A program made the translations under genes and the position numbers. The notes below the pieces were generated by a model. The model was not told the DNA's origin, searched no databases, and saw only the letters and a list, made by a program, of their open reading frames with translations. A DNA stretch of 64,000 nt from Ruminococcus sp. (GTDB taxonomy: Bacteria > Bacillota > Clostridia > Oscillospirales > Ruminococcaceae), in NCBI GenBank assembly GCA_021200415.1, contig JAJQGO010000013.1:310986-374985 (forward strand). The letters are read 5' to 3'. Position 1 is the stretch's first letter, and each line of letters opens with the position of its first letter. Below, piece after piece: positions 20,517 through 37,241 of the stretch.

Positions 20517-20599
20517 GTTTTATTTTGTTCCGGATACGGTACCGTTCGGAGCAGCATCACATATTTTACTCAGACAAAATGTTTATGGAGGTTGATCTT

Positions 20600-22375
20600 A
20601 TGAGTGATGAAATCATGGAAACTATAAGCGGCACTACTTTCGGTGTCTGGTTTCTGATTGGCGCTGCACTCGTATTCTTTATGCAGTGTGGATTTGCAAT
20701 GGTTGAAACAGGTTTTACCAGAGCAAAGAATGCCGGAAATATTATTATGAAAAACCTGATGGACTTCTGTATCGGTACAGTCGTTTTCATCTTAATCGGT
20801 TTCGGACTTCTCCTTGGTGAGGATTTAGCAGGATTTATTGGTAAGCCCGGATTTGACATCATTACCAATTATGAATCCTTTGATTGGTCAAACTTTATTT
20901 TTAACCTTGTATTCTGTGCAACTACTTCTACAATTGTTTCAGGTGCAATGGCTGAAAGAACAAAGTTCCTTTCATACTGCGTTTACTCCGCAGTTATCTC
21001 AGCTCTCATTTACCCGATTGAAGCACACTGGATCTGGGGCGGCGGCTGGCTTGCAGAATGGGGATTCCACGATTTCGCAGGCTCATGCGCTATCCATATG
21101 GTCGGCGGTATCTCAGCTCTTATCGGAGCTAAGATTCTTGGACCACGTATCGGCAAATTCGACAAAGACAGCAGCGGCAAGGTAACAAAGGTTCGCGCTA
21201 TTCCCGGTCACTCCCTTACACTTGGCGCTCTCGGCTGCTTTATCCTCTGGTTCGGCTGGTACGGATTCAACGGCGCAGCTGCAACTTCAGTTGATCAGCT
21301 TGGCTCTATTTTCGTAACAACTACAATTGCCCCCGCAATTGCAACAGTTACCTGTATGATATTCACATGGATCAAATACGGCAAGCCTGACGTTTCAATG
21401 TGTCTTAACGCTTCACTTGCAGGACTTGTAGGAATCACGGCAGGATGTGACGCTCTTAACGCTGTCGGCGCAATCATTGTCGGTATCGTTTCGGGACTTC
21501 TCGTTCCCTTTGGCGTATGGCTTCTTGACTACGTTCTTCACATCGACGACCCTGTCGGTGCGGTTGCAGTTCACATGATGAACGGTATCTGGGGCACAAT
21601 TGCTGTAGGTCTTTTCGCAGATCCTTCTGTTCCCGGATATTCTCTCGCAGATAAAAACGGAGACGAACTGGCAGGTCTTTTCTACGGCGGCGGCTTCGGA
21701 CTCCTCGGCAGACAGCTTACAGGATTCGTTGCAGTTGCTGCATGGACAGCCGTAACAATTACAATCACATTCCTTGCAATCAAGCACACTATCGGTCTGC
21801 GTGCATCCGCTGAAGAGGAAATCATCGGTTTGGACGCAACAGAACACAATCTCCCCTCCTCTTATGCAGACTTCATGCCTTCAATCGAATCTATCAAGAC
21901 AATCGACAAGGAGGCTGCTGCTGCCGGAATTCAGGCTCCCGCATCACCTATCCCATCGGCAGTTGCTGCTGCACCTGCTAAGCCTGCACCTTCTACAGCA
22001 GAGGCATCATCTGCTAAGATTACAAAGGTCAGCATCATCTGTAAGCAGAACAAGCTTGAAACTCTCCAGAAGGCTCTCATGGAGGTTGGCGTAAAGGGTA
22101 TCACTGTTACACAGGTACTCGGCTACGGTACTCAGAAGGGTCACGAAACATATTATCGTGGCGTTAAGGAGGATTCACCGACACTTCTGCCGAAGTTCAA
22201 GGTTGAAGCTGTTGTATCCAAGGTTCCTGTTGAGGACGTAGTAAACGCAGCTAAGAATGCTCTCTACACAGGCAATATCGGCGACGGAAAGATGTTCGTA
22301 TACGATGTTGAGAACGCTATTAAGGTTCGTACAGGTGAAGAAGGCTTCGATGCTCTTCAGGGCGAGGACTATTGA
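20600..22375 (+). CDS. amt: Ammonium transporter fused to a C-terminal PII domain
   Basis: 591 residues from the ATG at 20600, chosen because TATGGAGG precedes it; the longer frame has no ribosome site and runs into the leader. Residues 1-420 form an Amt/Mep channel with about 11 helices (FFMQCGFAMVETGFTRAKN, EAHWIWGGGWLAEWGF, DPVGAVAVHMMNGIWGT; conserved pore His residues present). An Ala/Pro linker spans about 440-470. Residues 474-591 are a full PII domain with GDGKMFVYDVENAI and KVRTGEE. The T-loop reads YYRGVKED, with Glu where the modifiable Tyr51 would be. PII normally plugs Amt through its T-loop, so the fusion makes this regulation intramolecular (inference). Confidence 0.95.
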   Translation: MSDEIMETISGTTFGVWFLIGAALVFFMQCGFAMVETGFTRAKNAGNIIMKNLMDFCIGTVVFILIGFGLLLGEDLAGFIGKPGFDIITNYESFDWSNFIFNLVFCATTSTIVSGAMAERTKFLSYCVYSAVISALIYPIEAHWIWGGGWLAEWGFHDFAGSCAIHMVGGISALIGAKILGPRIGKFDKDSSGKVTKVRAIPGHSLTLGALGCFILWFGWYGFNGAAATSVDQLGSIFVTTTIAPAIATVTCMIFTWIKYGKPDVSMCLNASLAGLVGITAGCDALNAVGAIIVGIVSGLLVPFGVWLLDYVLHIDDPVGAVAVHMMNGIWGTIAVGLFADPSVPGYSLADKNGDELAGLFYGGGFGLLGRQLTGFVAVAAWTAVTITITFLAIKHTIGLRASAEEEIIGLDATEHNLPSSYADFMPSIESIKTIDKEAAAAGIQAPASPIPSAVAAAPAKPAPSTAEASSAKITKVSIICKQNKLETLQKALMEVGVKGITVTQVLGYGTQKGHETYYRGVKEDSPTLLPKFKVEAVVSKVPVEDVVNAAKNALYTGNIGDGKMFVYDVENAIKVRTGEEGFDALQGEDY

Positions 22376-23161: not shown

Positions 23162-24256
23162 TTAGCAAAAGTTAGGATAGTCAAGCATATGCGCAAGCAG
23201 AGCAATATTAACTGCCGCCTCAACGCATGGAACAGCTCTCGGAACGATACACGGATCGTGACGTCCCTTAATGCTCAGAACCTCGTTTTTCACATCGTGA
23301 TAATCAACCGTATTCTGCTCCTGCGCAATCGAAGGAGTAGGCTTAATTGCAACATTCAGGGTAATCGGCATTCCCGATGAAATTCCGCCGAGTATGCCGC
23401 CGTGATTATTTGTTTTCGTCACAACATGGCCCTTCTCGTCAACGTAGAACTCATCATTATTCGTGCTTCCGACCATTTTCGCAACCTCAAAGCCTGCGCC
23501 GAATTCCAGTCCCTTGACTGCGGGAATACCAAAAATCAGCTGCGCAATTGAGTTTTCCAGCCCCTCAAAAATCGGTGAGCCGATTCCGGCGGGAACATTA
23601 ACTGCCACACACTCTATAATGCCTCCCAGCGATTCGCACTCCATTCTCGCATTCTGAATATCCTCCTTCATCAGCTCGCCCTTTTTGTCGCTGATAACCG
23701 GAAATTCCTTATAGCGGACGTCAAGAATATCCTGACGCGTAACATTTACATGGTCGAAGGACGCATCCTTGATTTCATGAATGGACGCAATGTGCGCGCC
23801 CGTATAGATTCCCCTGCGTTCGAGAATCTGTCCGCAGACAGCTCCCGCAAAGCAAAGAGGAGCAGTAAGACGTCCCGAAAAGTGACCGCCGCCTCTCACG
23901 TCGTTGAAGCCCTTATACCTCACAGCTCCCGTATAATCCGCGTGACCCGGCCTTGCAAGTCTGGAGATATTGGAATAATCTCCCGAATGGGTATCGGTAT
24001 TCTGAATGAACGCGCAGAGGGGAGTTCCCGTAGTTCTGTCATTGAACACACCCGAAAGAATCTGCGGCATATCCTTTTCGCTTCTTGAAGTTGTTGTTCC
24101 GTCTTTTTTAGGCGCTCTTCTTGCCATAAATCTTCCGAGTTCCTCAACGTCAATATATTCTCCCGGCGGAAGATTGTCGATAATAACGCCGATAGCGGGC
24201 CCGTGGGACTCGCCGAAAATTGAAATTGAAATGCGATTATTCCAAAGTGATGACAT
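23162..24256 (-). CDS. aroC: Chorismate synthase
   Basis: 364 residues from the ATG at 24256 preceded by GGAGG; the longer frame would overlap aroA further and lacks a ribosome site. Signatures: GESHGPAIGVIIDNLPPG, RPGHADYTGAVRYKGFNDVRGGGHFSGR, GAGFEVAKMVGS, NNHGGILGGISSGMP and RHDPCIVPRAVPCVEAA. It converts EPSP to chorismate using reduced FMN. The start overlaps the aroA end by 20 bp, consistent with translational coupling. Confidence 0.97.
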   Translation of the reverse strand: MSSLWNNRISISIFGESHGPAIGVIIDNLPPGEYIDVEELGRFMARRAPKKDGTTTSRSEKDMPQILSGVFNDRTTGTPLCAFIQNTDTHSGDYSNISRLARPGHADYTGAVRYKGFNDVRGGGHFSGRLTAPLCFAGAVCGQILERRGIYTGAHIASIHEIKDASFDHVNVTRQDILDVRYKEFPVISDKKGELMKEDIQNARMECESLGGIIECVAVNVPAGIGSPIFEGLENSIAQLIFGIPAVKGLEFGAGFEVAKMVGSTNNDEFYVDEKGHVVTKTNNHGGILGGISSGMPITLNVAIKPTPSIAQEQNTVDYHDVKNEVLSIKGRHDPCIVPRAVPCVEAAVNIALLAHMLDYPNFC

Positions 24257-25472
24257 TAGCTTTACCTCCAAGATTGTTATAATCCCTGAAAAAATCCGGA
24301 TAAGACTTCTCAACAGCCTCTGCACCCCTGATTATAATATCGCCGTCCGCTTTTACAGCGGCAATTGCAGCCGACATAACGATTCTGTGGTCGCCGAAGC
24401 TGCTCACAAATCCGCCATGCAGCGTTTTTACAGGTTTTATCAGCAGTCCGTCGTCAGTGACAGTAACCCTTCCGCCAAGCCTGTTCAGCGTAACGGAAAT
24501 AGCCTCAAGCCTGTTGCTTTCCTTGATTTTCAAACGCTTTGCGTTAAAAATTTTGGAAGGTCCCTTTCCGAAGCAGCCAAGAACAGTCAGAATTGGCACG
24601 AGATCCGGAATATCAGAGCAATCGGCTTCAAAATTTTTCAGTCCATTCTCATTATAGCACATCTCGGAAATAATATCAAGAATTTTCTTGTCGCCCTGAA
24701 CACTGTTTTTGTTAAGATTTTGCAAATTTATGCTGCATCCGAGGGCATTTGCGGTATAGAAAAACGCTGCCTGAGAATAATCGCCCTCAACGGTTACATC
24801 GCAGGGCTTGTATCTCTGCGAGCCTTTTATTATGTAATTATTATTGAATTCCATTATCTCAATGCCGAATTTTTTCAGGCAGTCAATGGTAATATCCACA
24901 TACGGCTTTGATTCAAGCTTTGATGTAATCCTGATAATGGAATCGCTTTTAAGAAGCGGAAGCGCAAAAAGGAGTCCCGTAATGAACTGTGATGAAACGT
25001 CCCCCTCTACCTCATAGATTCCGGATTCAAGCTTGCCTGACATATCAAAGGGCATGGTGCAGTAGTAATCGAAGGTGATACCCTTCTGACCAAGCTCCCT
25101 TAAATAGATGTGTATGGGGCGTTCGGGGAGTCTGCCTCTTCCGAGAAAGCGGGAGGTAGTCCCGAGGGCGGCTGCAATGGGAATTACAAAACGGAGAGTA
25201 GATCCGCTTTCGTTGCAGTTGATTACTGCCCTTTCCGGAGCCTTACTTATTCCGCGCACTTTAACATTGCCGTTTCCATCGACGGTGCATTCAGCTCCGA
25301 GAGCATTCATGGCGGATATTGTCGCTTCTATATCCTTAGACATATTTATTCCGCTGATGACAGATTCGCCTTCAGCAAGGGCGGCGCAGATGAGGGCGCG
25401 GTGAGCGTAGCTTTTCGATGAGGGTATATAAACATCTCCGCTGAGCTTTGAGGGCTGAATTTTTACGTCCAT
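24237..25472 (-). CDS. aroA: EPSP synthase (3-phosphoshikimate 1-carboxyvinyltransferase)
   Basis: 411 residues. N-terminal PSKSYAHRALICAALAEG, the NESGSTLRFVIP phosphate/PEP-binding block (a Ser-for-Gly/Ala variant of the usual N-x-G-T pattern), RLPERPIHIYLRELG and C-terminal SNRLEAISVTLNRLG and SFGDHRIVMSAAIAA. It transfers the enolpyruvyl group of PEP to shikimate 3-phosphate. Slightly shorter than the 427-residue E. coli type. Its start abuts the aroB stop. Confidence 0.95.
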   Translation of the reverse strand: MDVKIQPSKLSGDVYIPSSKSYAHRALICAALAEGESVISGINMSKDIEATISAMNALGAECTVDGNGNVKVRGISKAPERAVINCNESGSTLRFVIPIAAALGTTSRFLGRGRLPERPIHIYLRELGQKGITFDYYCTMPFDMSGKLESGIYEVEGDVSSQFITGLLFALPLLKSDSIIRITSKLESKPYVDITIDCLKKFGIEIMEFNNNYIIKGSQRYKPCDVTVEGDYSQAAFFYTANALGCSINLQNLNKNSVQGDKKILDIISEMCYNENGLKNFEADCSDIPDLVPILTVLGCFGKGPSKIFNAKRLKIKESNRLEAISVTLNRLGGRVTVTDDGLLIKPVKTLHGGFVSSFGDHRIVMSAAIAAVKADGDIIIRGAEAVEKSYPDFFRDYNNLGGKANVITLE

Positions 25473-26515
25473 TACGATTCCTCCATCATTTTATTGAATT
25501 CCGCAACGGAGGCTTTTCTTATTTCAGCCTCCCCGATTTTTTCGCAGACAATGAAATTTATATTATTTGATTCACGCTTTTTGTCCTTTGAGCAGAAGGG
25601 AAGAAGCTCCGCCATTGAAGCCTCCGAATCAATCGGGAGTCCATATGCTCTGACACATTTTTCAAGCCTTTCGGACAGATTTTCCGCGAATCGTCTTGTA
25701 ATGATGCACATTCCTGCCGCAACGCCTTTTCCGTGAGTATAATTCACATAATTGTGATAACCCTCGATTGCATGGCCTATCGTATGTCCAAAATTCAGAA
25801 TCATGCGTTCGCCGCGGTCGAATTCATCGTTTTCAACAACGGCTCTTTTTATATCGATGCAGGTGTATACAATTTCGTCCATAACCTCATGTACGTTTCC
25901 GAGGTCATGCTCCGCTATCAGCCTGAACAGCTTTTCATCACGAATCATTCCGTATTTTATGGCTTCAGCCATACCGTCGGCAAGAATATCGGGAGAGAGG
26001 GTTTTCAGCGTGTCGCTGTCGCAAATCACGAGGGCGGGCTGCTTGAACGCTCCCGCAAGATTCTTGCCGCATTTAAGGTCGATTGCCGTTTTTCCGCCGA
26101 CAGATGAATCAATCTGGGCAAGGAGGGTTGTAGGAATCTGCACAAACTCCACGCCGCGCAGGAAGGTTGCAGCCGCAAATCCGGTAATATCACCCACAAC
26201 GCCGCCGCCAAGGGCAATTATAATATCGTTTCTCGTAATGCTGCTTTCGCACAGGAAATCATAAATATCACTGAGTACGGCAAGGCTCTTTGAAGCCTCA
26301 CCGTTCGGGAACGAAAACATTGTACACCCGAAGCCGTTTTCCGTGAGAGATTTTTTTACGGTATCTCCGTAAAGCTTTTCAACAACATCATCGGTAATTA
26401 TGGCAGCTCTGCGTGATTTGGCAATATCCGCAATATATTTGCCGCAGCTTTTTATACTGCCGCGCTCAATAAGAACGTCATAGGGCTTGCTTGTATTAAC
26501 TCTGATTGTTTTCAT
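25472..26515 (-). CDS. aroB: 3-Dehydroquinate synthase
   Basis: 347 residues from the ATG at 26515 (MKTIRVNTSKPYDV). NAD-binding FPNGEASKSL, GGGVVGDITGFAAATFLRGV, TTLLAQIDSSVGGKTAID, the metal-binding NFGHTIGHAIEG and HGKGVAAGM. It cyclises DAHP to 3-dehydroquinate. The start codon overlaps the aroF stop region, indicating tight coupling. Confidence 0.96.
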   Translation of the reverse strand: MKTIRVNTSKPYDVLIERGSIKSCGKYIADIAKSRRAAIITDDVVEKLYGDTVKKSLTENGFGCTMFSFPNGEASKSLAVLSDIYDFLCESSITRNDIIIALGGGVVGDITGFAAATFLRGVEFVQIPTTLLAQIDSSVGGKTAIDLKCGKNLAGAFKQPALVICDSDTLKTLSPDILADGMAEAIKYGMIRDEKLFRLIAEHDLGNVHEVMDEIVYTCIDIKRAVVENDEFDRGERMILNFGHTIGHAIEGYHNYVNYTHGKGVAAGMCIITRRFAENLSERLEKCVRAYGLPIDSEASMAELLPFCSKDKKRESNNINFIVCEKIGEAEIRKASVAEFNKMMEES

Positions 26516-26516
26516 A

Positions 26517-27530
26517 TCAGCCAAGTTCCTTTCCGCAGAATTCAATCATAGGCTTGATCTTCTTCATAACCTCCTCGAACTTCTCGGGCTTGAGCTGCTG
26601 TGCGCCGTCGGAAAGAGCCTTTGAGGGATTGCAGTGAACCTCGATTTCAAGGGCGTCCGCACCTGCCGCAATTGCCGCAAGGGACATAGGCTCAACAAGT
26701 GAAGCAATTCCCGTCGCATGGCTCGGATCTACGACAACAGGAAGATGAGTACGCTGCTTGAGAAGCGGAACTGCGGATATATCGAGTGTATTTCTTGTGT
26801 AGGTTTCAAATGTTCTGATGCCTCTCTCGCAGAGAATTACATTGCTGTTGCCGCCTGCCATAATGTATTCGGCGGACATAAGAAGCTCCTCCATTGTGTT
26901 CGCAAGACCCCTCTTCAGGAGAATCGGCTTATCGGAGCGTCCCAGCTGCTTGAGAAGCTCGAAGTTCTGCATATTTCTTGCTCCCACCTGAATTACGTCA
27001 ATATCGGCGAAAAGGTCAAGATGCTCAGCTGACATGATTTCCGTTACAATGGGAAGTCCCGTTGCCTTACGTGCGGCAAGAAGAAGTCTGATGCCCTCCT
27101 CGTGAAGTCCCTGGAAGGAGTAGGGGGAGGTTCTCGGCTTGAACGCGCCGCCTCTGAGCATTGTAGCTCCCGCCTTCTTTACGGCTTCAGCAGTTGAAAT
27201 TATCTGCTCCTCGCTTTCAACGGAGCATGGGCCTGCGATAATCTGCACATGATTTCCGCCGATAATTCTGCCGCTTACATCAATAACCGTATCCTCCGGA
27301 TGGAACTGTCTGTTGCACGCCTTGTAAGGCTCCTGAACTCTCTGAACACGCTCTACAACAGGCTGAGCGTTAATGAGGTCAATGTCCAGCTTTGAGGTAT
27401 CGCCCACAAGACCGAGAATGTTGTGATTGACGCCGTTGATTCCGGATACCTTGACTCCCCTGTCCGTGAGCATTCCGATAAGCGAATCGTAATCGTTTTT
27501 GTTTGCGTTTTCCTTGAGAATGATAATCAT
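26517..27530 (-). CDS. aroF: DAHP synthase (3-deoxy-7-phosphoheptulonate synthase), AroF type with regulatory domain
   Basis: 337 residues from the ATG at 27530 behind AGGAGG. Residues 1-70 form the ferredoxin-like regulatory domain typical of this subfamily (IIILKENANKNDY, LGLVGDTSKLD). The catalytic barrel follows with IAGPCSVESEEQI, RGGAFKPRTSPYSFQG, VQVGARNMQNFELLK-type sequence, ILLKRGLANT and VVDPSHATG. It condenses PEP and erythrose 4-phosphate, the committed step. First structural gene of the aro operon. Its expression is probably set by the aromatic leader peptide upstream; the N-terminal domain probably adds feedback inhibition (family knowledge). Confidence 0.96.
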   Translation of the reverse strand: MIIILKENANKNDYDSLIGMLTDRGVKVSGINGVNHNILGLVGDTSKLDIDLINAQPVVERVQRVQEPYKACNRQFHPEDTVIDVSGRIIGGNHVQIIAGPCSVESEEQIISTAEAVKKAGATMLRGGAFKPRTSPYSFQGLHEEGIRLLLAARKATGLPIVTEIMSAEHLDLFADIDVIQVGARNMQNFELLKQLGRSDKPILLKRGLANTMEELLMSAEYIMAGGNSNVILCERGIRTFETYTRNTLDISAVPLLKQRTHLPVVVDPSHATGIASLVEPMSLAAIAAGADALEIEVHCNPSKALSDGAQQLKPEKFEEVMKKIKPMIEFCGKELG

Positions 27531-27550
27531 AATAAAAACCTCCTGATAAT

Positions 27551-27588
27551 ATAAAAGCCGCTGCTTCAATTCACAAAAGCAACGGTTT
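27551..27588 (-). terminator. Attenuator terminator of the aro operon leader (segments 3:4)
   Basis: In mRNA order CCGTTGCTT (plus 27585-27577) pairs with AAGCAGCGG (plus 27566-27558) with one wobble, followed by CTTTTAT. It lies between the leader peptide stop and the aroF Shine-Dalgarno. The T-tract is short. Confidence 0.7.
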
Positions 27589-27610
27589 GAGATACGTATT
27601 TAACTATTCC

Positions 27611-27703
27611 CTGCTTTGCGAATTTCACTTTTTTGCATGAAAAATAAACTCATAGCCATAAAAGAAGCATGAGTTCTGCCAAAAGTAAAAGTTGTCAAAG
27701 CAA
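27611..27703 (-). promoter_or_regulatory. Attenuator pairing segments 1 and 2
   Basis: Segment 1, TTGCTTTG (plus 27703-27696), lies within leader codons 4-6. Segment 2, CGCAAAGCAG (plus 27620-27611), follows the leader stop. CAAAGCA pairs with segment 1. AAAGCA also pairs with TGCTTT of the terminator's 5' arm, giving an antiterminator. Stalling at codons 9-12 would cover segment 1 and free segment 2. Confidence 0.6.
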
Positions 27704-27714
27704 TTGATATTCAT
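27625..27714 (-). CDS. Aromatic-rich leader peptide controlling the aro operon
   Basis: 29 codons, ATG at 27714 to TGA at 27625. AGGAGA (plus 27725-27730) lies 10 nt upstream. Eleven of 29 residues are aromatic: seven Phe, three Tyr and one Trp, including FYFW at residues 9-12 and FFY at 17-19. The ORF sits between a consensus promoter and the DAHP synthase gene and is followed by mutually exclusive stem segments. By analogy with trpL/pheL leaders, ribosomes stalling on scarce charged tRNA-Phe, -Tyr or -Trp would favour the antiterminator. The composition and placement make chance unlikely, but expression is not proven. Confidence 0.8.
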   Translation of the reverse strand: MNINCFDNFYFWQNSCFFYGYEFIFHAKK

Positions 27715-27776
27715 CGCAGTATGTTCTCCTGAAATTATTTGAGCGACACCATGCAGCTATGCGAAGTATCAAGGAG

Positions 27777-27805
27777 ATTATATCATATAATATTGAGCTT
27801 GTCAA
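27777..27805 (-). promoter_or_regulatory. aro operon promoter
   Basis: Minus strand TTGACA (plus 27800-27805), 17 bp, TATAAT (plus 27777-27782): a full consensus. The leader to aroF is about 240 nt. Confidence 0.9.
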
Positions 27806-27854: not shown

Positions 27855-28048
27855 TAAAATAAACCGCCTTGCCGTCATATAGCGTATAAAACCCGCACGA
27901 AGCAGGTGGGTAAACGCCCGGATGCTTCACGCTCCCTTCGTCCGAAAATCGGGAGGTCTGCAATCCACCGCCGGAGCTGAATTCCCTTATAAGATGTGTT
28001 GGATTATAAAAACTATAATTACCCGAACAAGGCAGAATATTTTTATCT
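27855..28048 (-). ncRNA. ssrS: Structured non-coding RNA, probably 6S RNA
   Basis: About 190 nt with its own consensus promoter and terminator and no coding frame. The ends close on each other: CTGCCTTGTTCGG near the 5' end pairs with ACGGCAAGGCGG near the 3' end, and TATAG with CTATA inside that. Further GC-rich pairings (GGTGG/CCACC, CTCCC/GGGAG, GAAGCA/TGCTTC) fill the centre, giving a rod. Size, terminal closing stem and the TGTTCG near the 5' end fit 6S RNA, which binds sigma-A RNA polymerase. I assign 6S from architecture, not from an alignment; another structured RNA is possible. Confidence 0.5.
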
Positions 28049-37137: not shown

Positions 37138-37241
37138 ACCTTATCAAGAGTGGCGGAGGGAACAGGTCCTACGAAGCCCGGCAACCTGACCGATAACGGC
37201 AAAGGTGCTATATCCTGCGGATTATCCGAAAGATGAGGATT
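37138..37241 (+). promoter_or_regulatory. SAM-I (S-box) riboswitch aptamer
   Basis: Contains the S-box consensus in order: CTTATCAAGAGTGGCGGAGG, GAAGCCCGGCAACCTG, GGTGCTATATCCTGC and GAAAGATGAGG. P1 is formed by CCTTATC and GATGAGG. SAM binding stabilises P1 and permits terminator formation, lowering metK transcription when SAM is plentiful. Confidence 0.97.

Follow-up and report, generated by a model that had tools for sequence, protein, structure and literature searches.

A putative leader-peptide attenuator rich in Phe and Tyr codons ahead of the aro operon in Ruminococcus sp. and related Clostridia

The leader-peptide attenuators pheL, trpL and pheST of Escherichia coli carry codons for the end product and form mutually exclusive 1:2, 2:3 and 3:4 pairs, and T-box leaders read tRNA charging and control terminators. 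Matched by description, the known systems closest to the locus presented here are aroR of Corynebacterium glutamicum and the candidate motif uORFC-13-1 of Acholeplasma. In C. glutamicum, aroF is described as being under leader-peptide attenuation (Neshat et al. 2014, via PMC11802643 and PMC4046766), and aroR, in the account given in PMC11802643, responds to phenylalanine limitation, tyrosine availability having no effect. The uORFC-13-1 motif combines an uORF containing one Phe codon or more with a terminator before aroF; attenuation was proposed for it in PMC8632094, where its 24 representatives come only from Acholeplasma and environmental sequences. Firmicute leader-peptide attenuators have also been described or proposed for his genes (PMC2965389, PMC9413887), for ilv of Staphylococcus aureus (PMC5794164) and for ilv of Listeria (PMC5864092). 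Together with the aroF leaders of Acholeplasma and of the actinobacterium C. glutamicum, these reports, as far as their descriptions go, make dated the view of an earlier note on this DNA that peptide attenuators are typical of Proteobacteria.

The leader investigated here lies in the window, i.e. the whole 64,000-nt stretch of Ruminococcus sp. DNA that was analysed. Like aroR, which has a Phe-Tyr-Phe run and is described as acting by ribosome-mediated attenuation, it precedes the gene of DAHP synthase; unlike the actinobacterial leader with its single F-Y-F, it has 11 aromatic codons, the comparison being one of descriptions. By description, too, it shares with uORFC-13-1 an uORF containing Phe codons and a terminator before aroF. 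Codons for the end product are common to it and the E. coli attenuators (described partly in PMC11802643), but it is directed at the common pathway, and the greater part of its ORF forms the 1:2 rod. The his and ilv attenuators of Firmicutes, as described, belong to the same mechanism class and serve other amino acids and operons. For Clostridia, no account of an aroF leader turned up in the open-access papers searched, subscription journals lying mostly outside the search.

Behind the leader, the genes follow in the order aroF-aroB-aroA-aroC (names by NCBIfam; Table 1), with an ATG at 27530 as the start codon of aroF. The consensus promoter which the earlier note had read upstream of the operon is present on the minus strand, as are the short ORF with its ribosome site and the terminator stem ahead of the DAHP synthase gene. 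A 6S RNA gene and then a terminator-like site lie 5' of this promoter, and therefore the leader probably begins its own transcript. In the nearest relative (L002), 6S RNA is likewise located just upstream of the leader (988-1171). The aromatic codons of the window leader (7 Phe, 3 Tyr and 1 Trp) all fall within codons 6-25, and the ORF can be aligned with an ORF in L002, L011, L015, L013 and L014. The element called segment 1 was correctly recognized in the earlier note, but it occupies codons 4-7 (ATG counted as 1) and not codons 4-6; segment 2 begins four bases past the leader stop codon. The folding of the 251-nt leader is more stable than that of all 200 of 200 dinucleotide shuffles (z=-3.7). 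Elsewhere, the window contains a SAM riboswitch (37138-37239, plus strand; RF00162, 82.5 bits) and an ORF (20525-22375, plus strand) that resembles an ammonium transporter with a C-terminal P-II-like domain, its translation having been judged by eye.

Table 1. Coordinates of the leader, the elements next to it and the aro genes in the window.
Feature	Coordinates	Strand	Remarks
6S RNA gene	27857-28041	-	RF00013, 62.9 bits; adjoins leader promoter upstream
Terminator-like site	27836-27823		3' of upstream 6S RNA gene, just ahead of leader promoter
Sigma-70-type promoter	27777-27805	-	TTGACA + 17-nt spacer + TATAAT; 12/12 consensus
Promoter -35 and -10 elements	27805-27800; 27782-27777	-	TTGACA; TATAAT, with TG preceding -10
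5' hairpin	27745-27770	-	close to expected leader transcript start; predicted fold
Shine-Dalgarno sequence AGGAG of leader ORF	27726-27730	-	11 nt ahead of ATG, long spacing
Leader peptide ORF MNINCFDNFYFWQNSCFFYGYEFIFHAKK	27625-27714	-	29 codons, 11 aromatic
Segment 1 (TTGCTTTG), rod base	27696-27703	-	pairs with 27618-27611 in MFE fold
Apical hairpin of rod	27646-27675	-	inside aromatic codons; pairs kept in alignment A3
Segment 2 (CGCAAAGCAG), antiterminator strand	27611-27620	-	alternative partners: segment 1 or segment 3
Intrinsic terminator	27585-27558	-	10 pairs, T-rich tail next
Segment 3, terminator 5' arm	27576-27585	-	
Segment 4, terminator 3' arm	27558-27567	-	
T-rich terminator tail	27548-27557	-	
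aroF, 3-deoxy-7-phosphoheptulonate (DAHP) synthase	26517-27530	-	NCBIfam NF006421 2.7e-148, TIGR01361 4.8e-121
aroB, 3-dehydroquinate synthase	25472-26545	-	TIGR01357 1.9e-102; limits of listed ORF
aroA, EPSP synthase	24237-25472	-	TIGR01356 6e-109
aroC, chorismate synthase	23162-24325	-	TIGR00033 3e-106; listed ORF, start probably near 24256

Very probably, the leader acts on the aro operon as a ribosome-mediated transcription attenuator that responds to the charging state of tRNA-Phe and tRNA-Tyr. In the absence of a ribosome, the leader ORF would fold into a long rod closed at its base by the pairing of segments 1 and 2, and the terminator would form. When phenylalanine and tyrosine are plentiful, the ribosome would reach the stop codon and mask segment 2, and the terminator would form as well. 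A shortage of either amino acid would stall the ribosome within the aromatic block, which would open the rod and free segment 2; the freed segment could then pair with the emerging 5' arm of the terminator, resulting in read-through into aroF-aroB-aroA-aroC. The stalling, the read-through and the amino acids sensed are what we infer from the observed parts, their conservation and the comparative support for the pairings. The trp/phe-style leader-peptide attenuator which the earlier note had placed before the aro operon is well supported by conservation, anatomy and covariation.

The occurrence of the leader was determined among the closest aroF relatives, which are no random sample. At E ≤ 1e-3, 10 of 100 genomes of the genus encode a relative of the DAHP synthase; at E ≤ 1e-120, an enzyme of the window type was present in only 8 of 125. 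Class II DAHP synthase was considered as the alternative enzyme of the genus and rejected, being absent from all 60 genomes (0/60). In the family, relatives were found in 260 of 396 genomes at E ≤ 1e-90, and named GTDB genomes were searched as well, the best 80 loci being kept. Loci L001-L120 gave 117 upstream regions, some of them short (e.g. L040, L061), after two distant homologues (L009, L010) and L113, whose upstream sequence is 83 nt long, had been dropped; loci L121-L200 gave 79, L198 not being placeable. The comparison of the regions upstream of aroF, proposed as a check in the earlier note, revealed that the aromatic-rich uORF with a Shine-Dalgarno sequence recurs at z ≥ 3 in 102 of the 196 regions (67/117 and 35/79). 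Such an uORF appeared in 0.7% of 7,020 shuffled regions of the larger set and in 37 of 4,740 (0.8%) of the smaller one; its presence upstream of aroF is not due to chance. The named carriers include Clostridium magnum (L089), C. ganghwense (L107), C. mediterraneense (L083), Oscillibacter valericigenes (L064) and Angelakisella massiliensis (L071). No candidate aromatic uORF was found at 36 of the 117 and 25 of the 79 aroF loci. A T-box was discarded as the explanation of leaderless aroF genes, since just one of the 40 leaderless or weak loci scanned has one (L094). The first genes of tandem aroF pairs were likewise discarded as leader carriers (just 1 of 5). Tandem aroF genes occur in four related genomes (L223-L226 with L023, L021, L028 and L024), and in these no aromatic uORF was found before either copy.

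The anatomy of the leader was described for a set of 123 sequences, made up of those at z ≥ 3 and weaker ones added by hand for a shared motif; L043, L047, ORFs with non-ATG starts and far-upstream ORFs were excluded. Removal of near-identical sequences left 114 non-redundant leaders, and a terminator is located between the uORF stop codon and aroF in 112 of them, 89 at z ≥ 3 and 23 added by hand. In a looser test, a terminator was detected in 74 of 75 leaders vs 51 of 225 shuffled regions. In the 112 leaders, 29.6% of the frame-0 codons are aromatic, compared with 12.2% and 15.8% in the other frames, a difference that arises partly by selection. The leaders were chosen for their frame-0 aromatic content, which makes the frame comparison partly circular; therefore, the unbiased tests against chance are the shuffles of whole regions. 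The aromatic share reaches 49-57% in the third to sixth tenths of the ORF and amounts to 6% and 5% in the final two tenths (112 leaders). This aromatic block in the middle of the ORF is the layout expected of ribosome stalling well ahead of the stop codon.

The pairing between the two halves of the uORF was examined by a swap test with non-overlapping stretches, namely the uORF before the median aromatic codon and its remainder together with up to 35 nt past the stop codon; an earlier 1:2 result of z=-19 had been set aside because the stretches overlapped. Across the 112 leaders, the native duplex is much more stable than the swapped ones (-24.7 vs -17.3 kcal/mol, z=-21.8), which indicates that much of the uORF forms a long rod. 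Such a rod is also present in the MFE fold of the window leader. The 1:2 pair of the earlier note therefore exists, not as a mere 8-bp element but as the base of a long rod made by most of the uORF. In the window, with transcription just past the 5' arm and no ribosome, the forced 1:2 fold is predicted at -48.2 and the forced 2:3 fold at -42.4 kcal/mol. The 1:2 pairing is thus favoured by 5.8 kcal/mol before the terminator is complete, so that the rod is predicted to hold segment 2. The covarying stems for which the earlier note had suggested looking were found in the apical stem and the terminator, the alignments being A2 (15 relatives) and A3 (6 sequences including the window). In A2, 5 of the 9 pairs of the apical stem are changed on both sides and 8 of the 11 terminator pairs covary; of the 27 pairs in the entire structure, 13 have double changes vs 7.2 in shuffles. 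The outer rod helix of A2 (columns 37-43 with 92-98) is conserved and not covarying, with 0 pairs changed on both sides. In A3, all 54 of 54 cells of the apical stem pair and 2 of its 9 pairs are double-changed; the whole structure has 10 double-change cells vs 4.6 in shuffles, but its count of double-changed pairs, 5, was reached by 69 of 500 shuffles. These shuffle counts are not probabilities, because the alignments also served to predict the structures and consist of related sequences. Moreover, pairs were counted for the rod and the terminator only, since MAFFT misregistered the antiterminator strands of A2, and the antiterminator was tested by swapping.

In the swap test of the antiterminator, the strand past the aromatic block pairs better with its own terminator 5' arm than with swapped arms (-10.1 vs -9.1, z=-4.8, 112 leaders). 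Early uORF and terminator arm, a pairing with no role in the model, also slightly exceed the swapped combinations (z=-2.7). Among 13 close relatives, the signal appears immediately past the aromatic block (offset -10, z=-3.7; offset 0, z=-3.1); none was detected upstream of the block, and the control before the ATG gave z=+0.4. Offsets +50 and +60 are also significant, and +40 weakly so, probably owing to stretches that approach or enter the terminator. The leader's own arm ranked top in only 3 of these 13. Examples of the pairing are AAAAGACTGCG with CGTAGTCTTTT in L020, TTAGCTGC with GTAGCTAA in L035 and GGGAAAGC-GGCGA with TCG-CGGCTTTCTC in L041. The per-leader shuffle test is weak, with p ≤ 0.05 in 12 of 74 leaders, and the short 2:3 pairing of the window itself does not stand out from shuffles (-8.6 vs a mean of -7.3 kcal/mol, p=0.19; 9 vs 8.5 bp for the arm when stalled). 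The support for the antiterminator comes from the relatives. The exclusive 1:2, 2:3 and 3:4 pairs claimed in the earlier note are supported across the relatives by swap tests and covariation, the 2:3 pair of the window not reaching significance on its own.

The position of the ribosome was also modelled. In the window, with the ribosomal A site anywhere from codon 4 to codon 27, 9 bp are predicted between the arm and the RNA 3' of the ribosome, and 0 bp with the ribosome at the stop codon. The apparent 9-bp pairing of the arm in the ribosome-free model probably involves the start-codon region and not segment 2. In three modelled relatives, the antiterminator is predicted to lose stability toward the stop codon, yet 5-12 arm pairs stay there. 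For the 112 leaders, the upstream pairs of the arm number 12.2 bp when the ribosome is stalled at the median aromatic codon, vs 8.7 in shuffles and 4.7 at the stop codon; pairing is greater in the stalled state in 97 leaders and the reverse holds in 8, whereas clear-cut switching (at least 6 pairs stalled, at most 3 at the stop codon) is seen in only 43 of the 112. The full terminator of the window is always predicted to be more stable than the antiterminator, and therefore the model relies on the order and kinetics of folding. Classical attenuators likewise depend on folding order.

Which amino acids the leader senses can be approached through its codons. The earlier note proposed that one peptide senses phenylalanine, tyrosine and tryptophan equally, chorismate synthesis being adjusted to the three together, a reading that appears unlikely. 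The single Trp codon of the window (codon 12) does fall where a stall would free segment 2, but the nearest relative, L002, has Tyr in its place. Among the 112 leaders, Phe codons occur in 111 and Tyr codons in 109, and a Trp codon is present in 39 and missing from the other 73; the 89 leaders at z ≥ 3 give the same picture (Phe 89, Tyr 88, Trp 35). Tryptophan, moreover, seems to have a sensor of another kind, as a probable T-box lies upstream of trpE in the same genome (L208 1043-1312, plus strand, contig C51; 68.5 bits, E=5.4e-14, below the Rfam gathering score of 93), and among 18 related trpE loci that were scanned, 7 pass the T-box gathering score. A tryptophan leader before trpE was rejected: under a similar rule, no aromatic uORF was found in any of 22 upstream regions, comprising 21 trpE loci and the single pheA locus, whose gene starts were picked automatically and are in a few cases doubtful (e.g. 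L204, L209). The claim for all three amino acids is therefore not supported, and we infer that the aroF leader senses phenylalanine and tyrosine, with tryptophan being sensed separately.

Other explanations dispense with the reading of tRNA charging by a translating ribosome. The leader could be a T-box, or else an RNA of another kind that binds a tRNA or a metabolite, with translation playing no part. T-boxes are common at genes of such kind, and the leaderless aroF locus L094 has one; this RNA (RF00230), which needs no translation, is nevertheless not found at the aroF leader, although it is probably used at trpE of the same genome. The window leader has no match in Rfam 15 at gathering score, whether to T-boxes or to other families, a permissive scan gave only unrelated families (E=0.48 or worse), and no match overlaps the leader in 20 leader-bearing relatives. 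Since such an RNA would also leave the open frame, the Shine-Dalgarno sequence and the aromatic codons unexplained, it is extremely improbable. An equally slight chance is given to a conserved small protein that has its own function, in which case the terminator would be an unrelated 5' element. The recurrence of an ORF with a Shine-Dalgarno sequence upstream of aroF would suit it, but leaders of 16-56 codons with very divergent sequences are unlike a conserved small protein, and the depletion of aromatic codons near the stop codon, along with the base pairing between ORF and terminator, fits a cis-acting switch. Somewhat less remote, and still very improbable, is a TnaC-type nascent-chain sensor, in which the peptide itself would arrest the ribosome when a free aromatic compound is present. 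It draws on non-aromatic residues that recur in distant leaders, as in G-F-Y-F-S-A-G-x-F-C-C; within the aromatic block, however, Phe and Tyr interchange among relatives. A search with this pattern matched 23 leaders, of which four without Ser have GGC or GCC. The Ser codon of the motif is AGC in 19 of 19 cases, compared with 169 of the 355 Ser codons in the 112 leaders (motif included, kinship uncorrected), and this invariance points to conservation of the RNA, in which GCU...AGC closes a stem as in A3, rather than of the peptide.

Summarizing, the comparative signs speak for a real conserved attenuator at the aro operon, which apparently adds a large group to a classic type of switch and most likely turns the aromatic pathway on when phenylalanine or tyrosine is scarce. 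A wider reading has close to, though not quite, an even chance of being right: an old attenuator class extending across Clostridia, in which the halves of the ORF are complementary and the coding sequence itself is the rod opened by the stalled ribosome, with phenylalanine and tyrosine sensed by the leader and tryptophan by T-boxes. Should the attenuator reading hold, classical leader-peptide attenuation would be a frequent control of the first step of aromatic biosynthesis in Clostridia, and a single genome would divide the labour between a translated leader for phenylalanine and tyrosine and a T-box for tryptophan. About a hundred leaders are available as material on the joint evolution of coding sequence and RNA stem.
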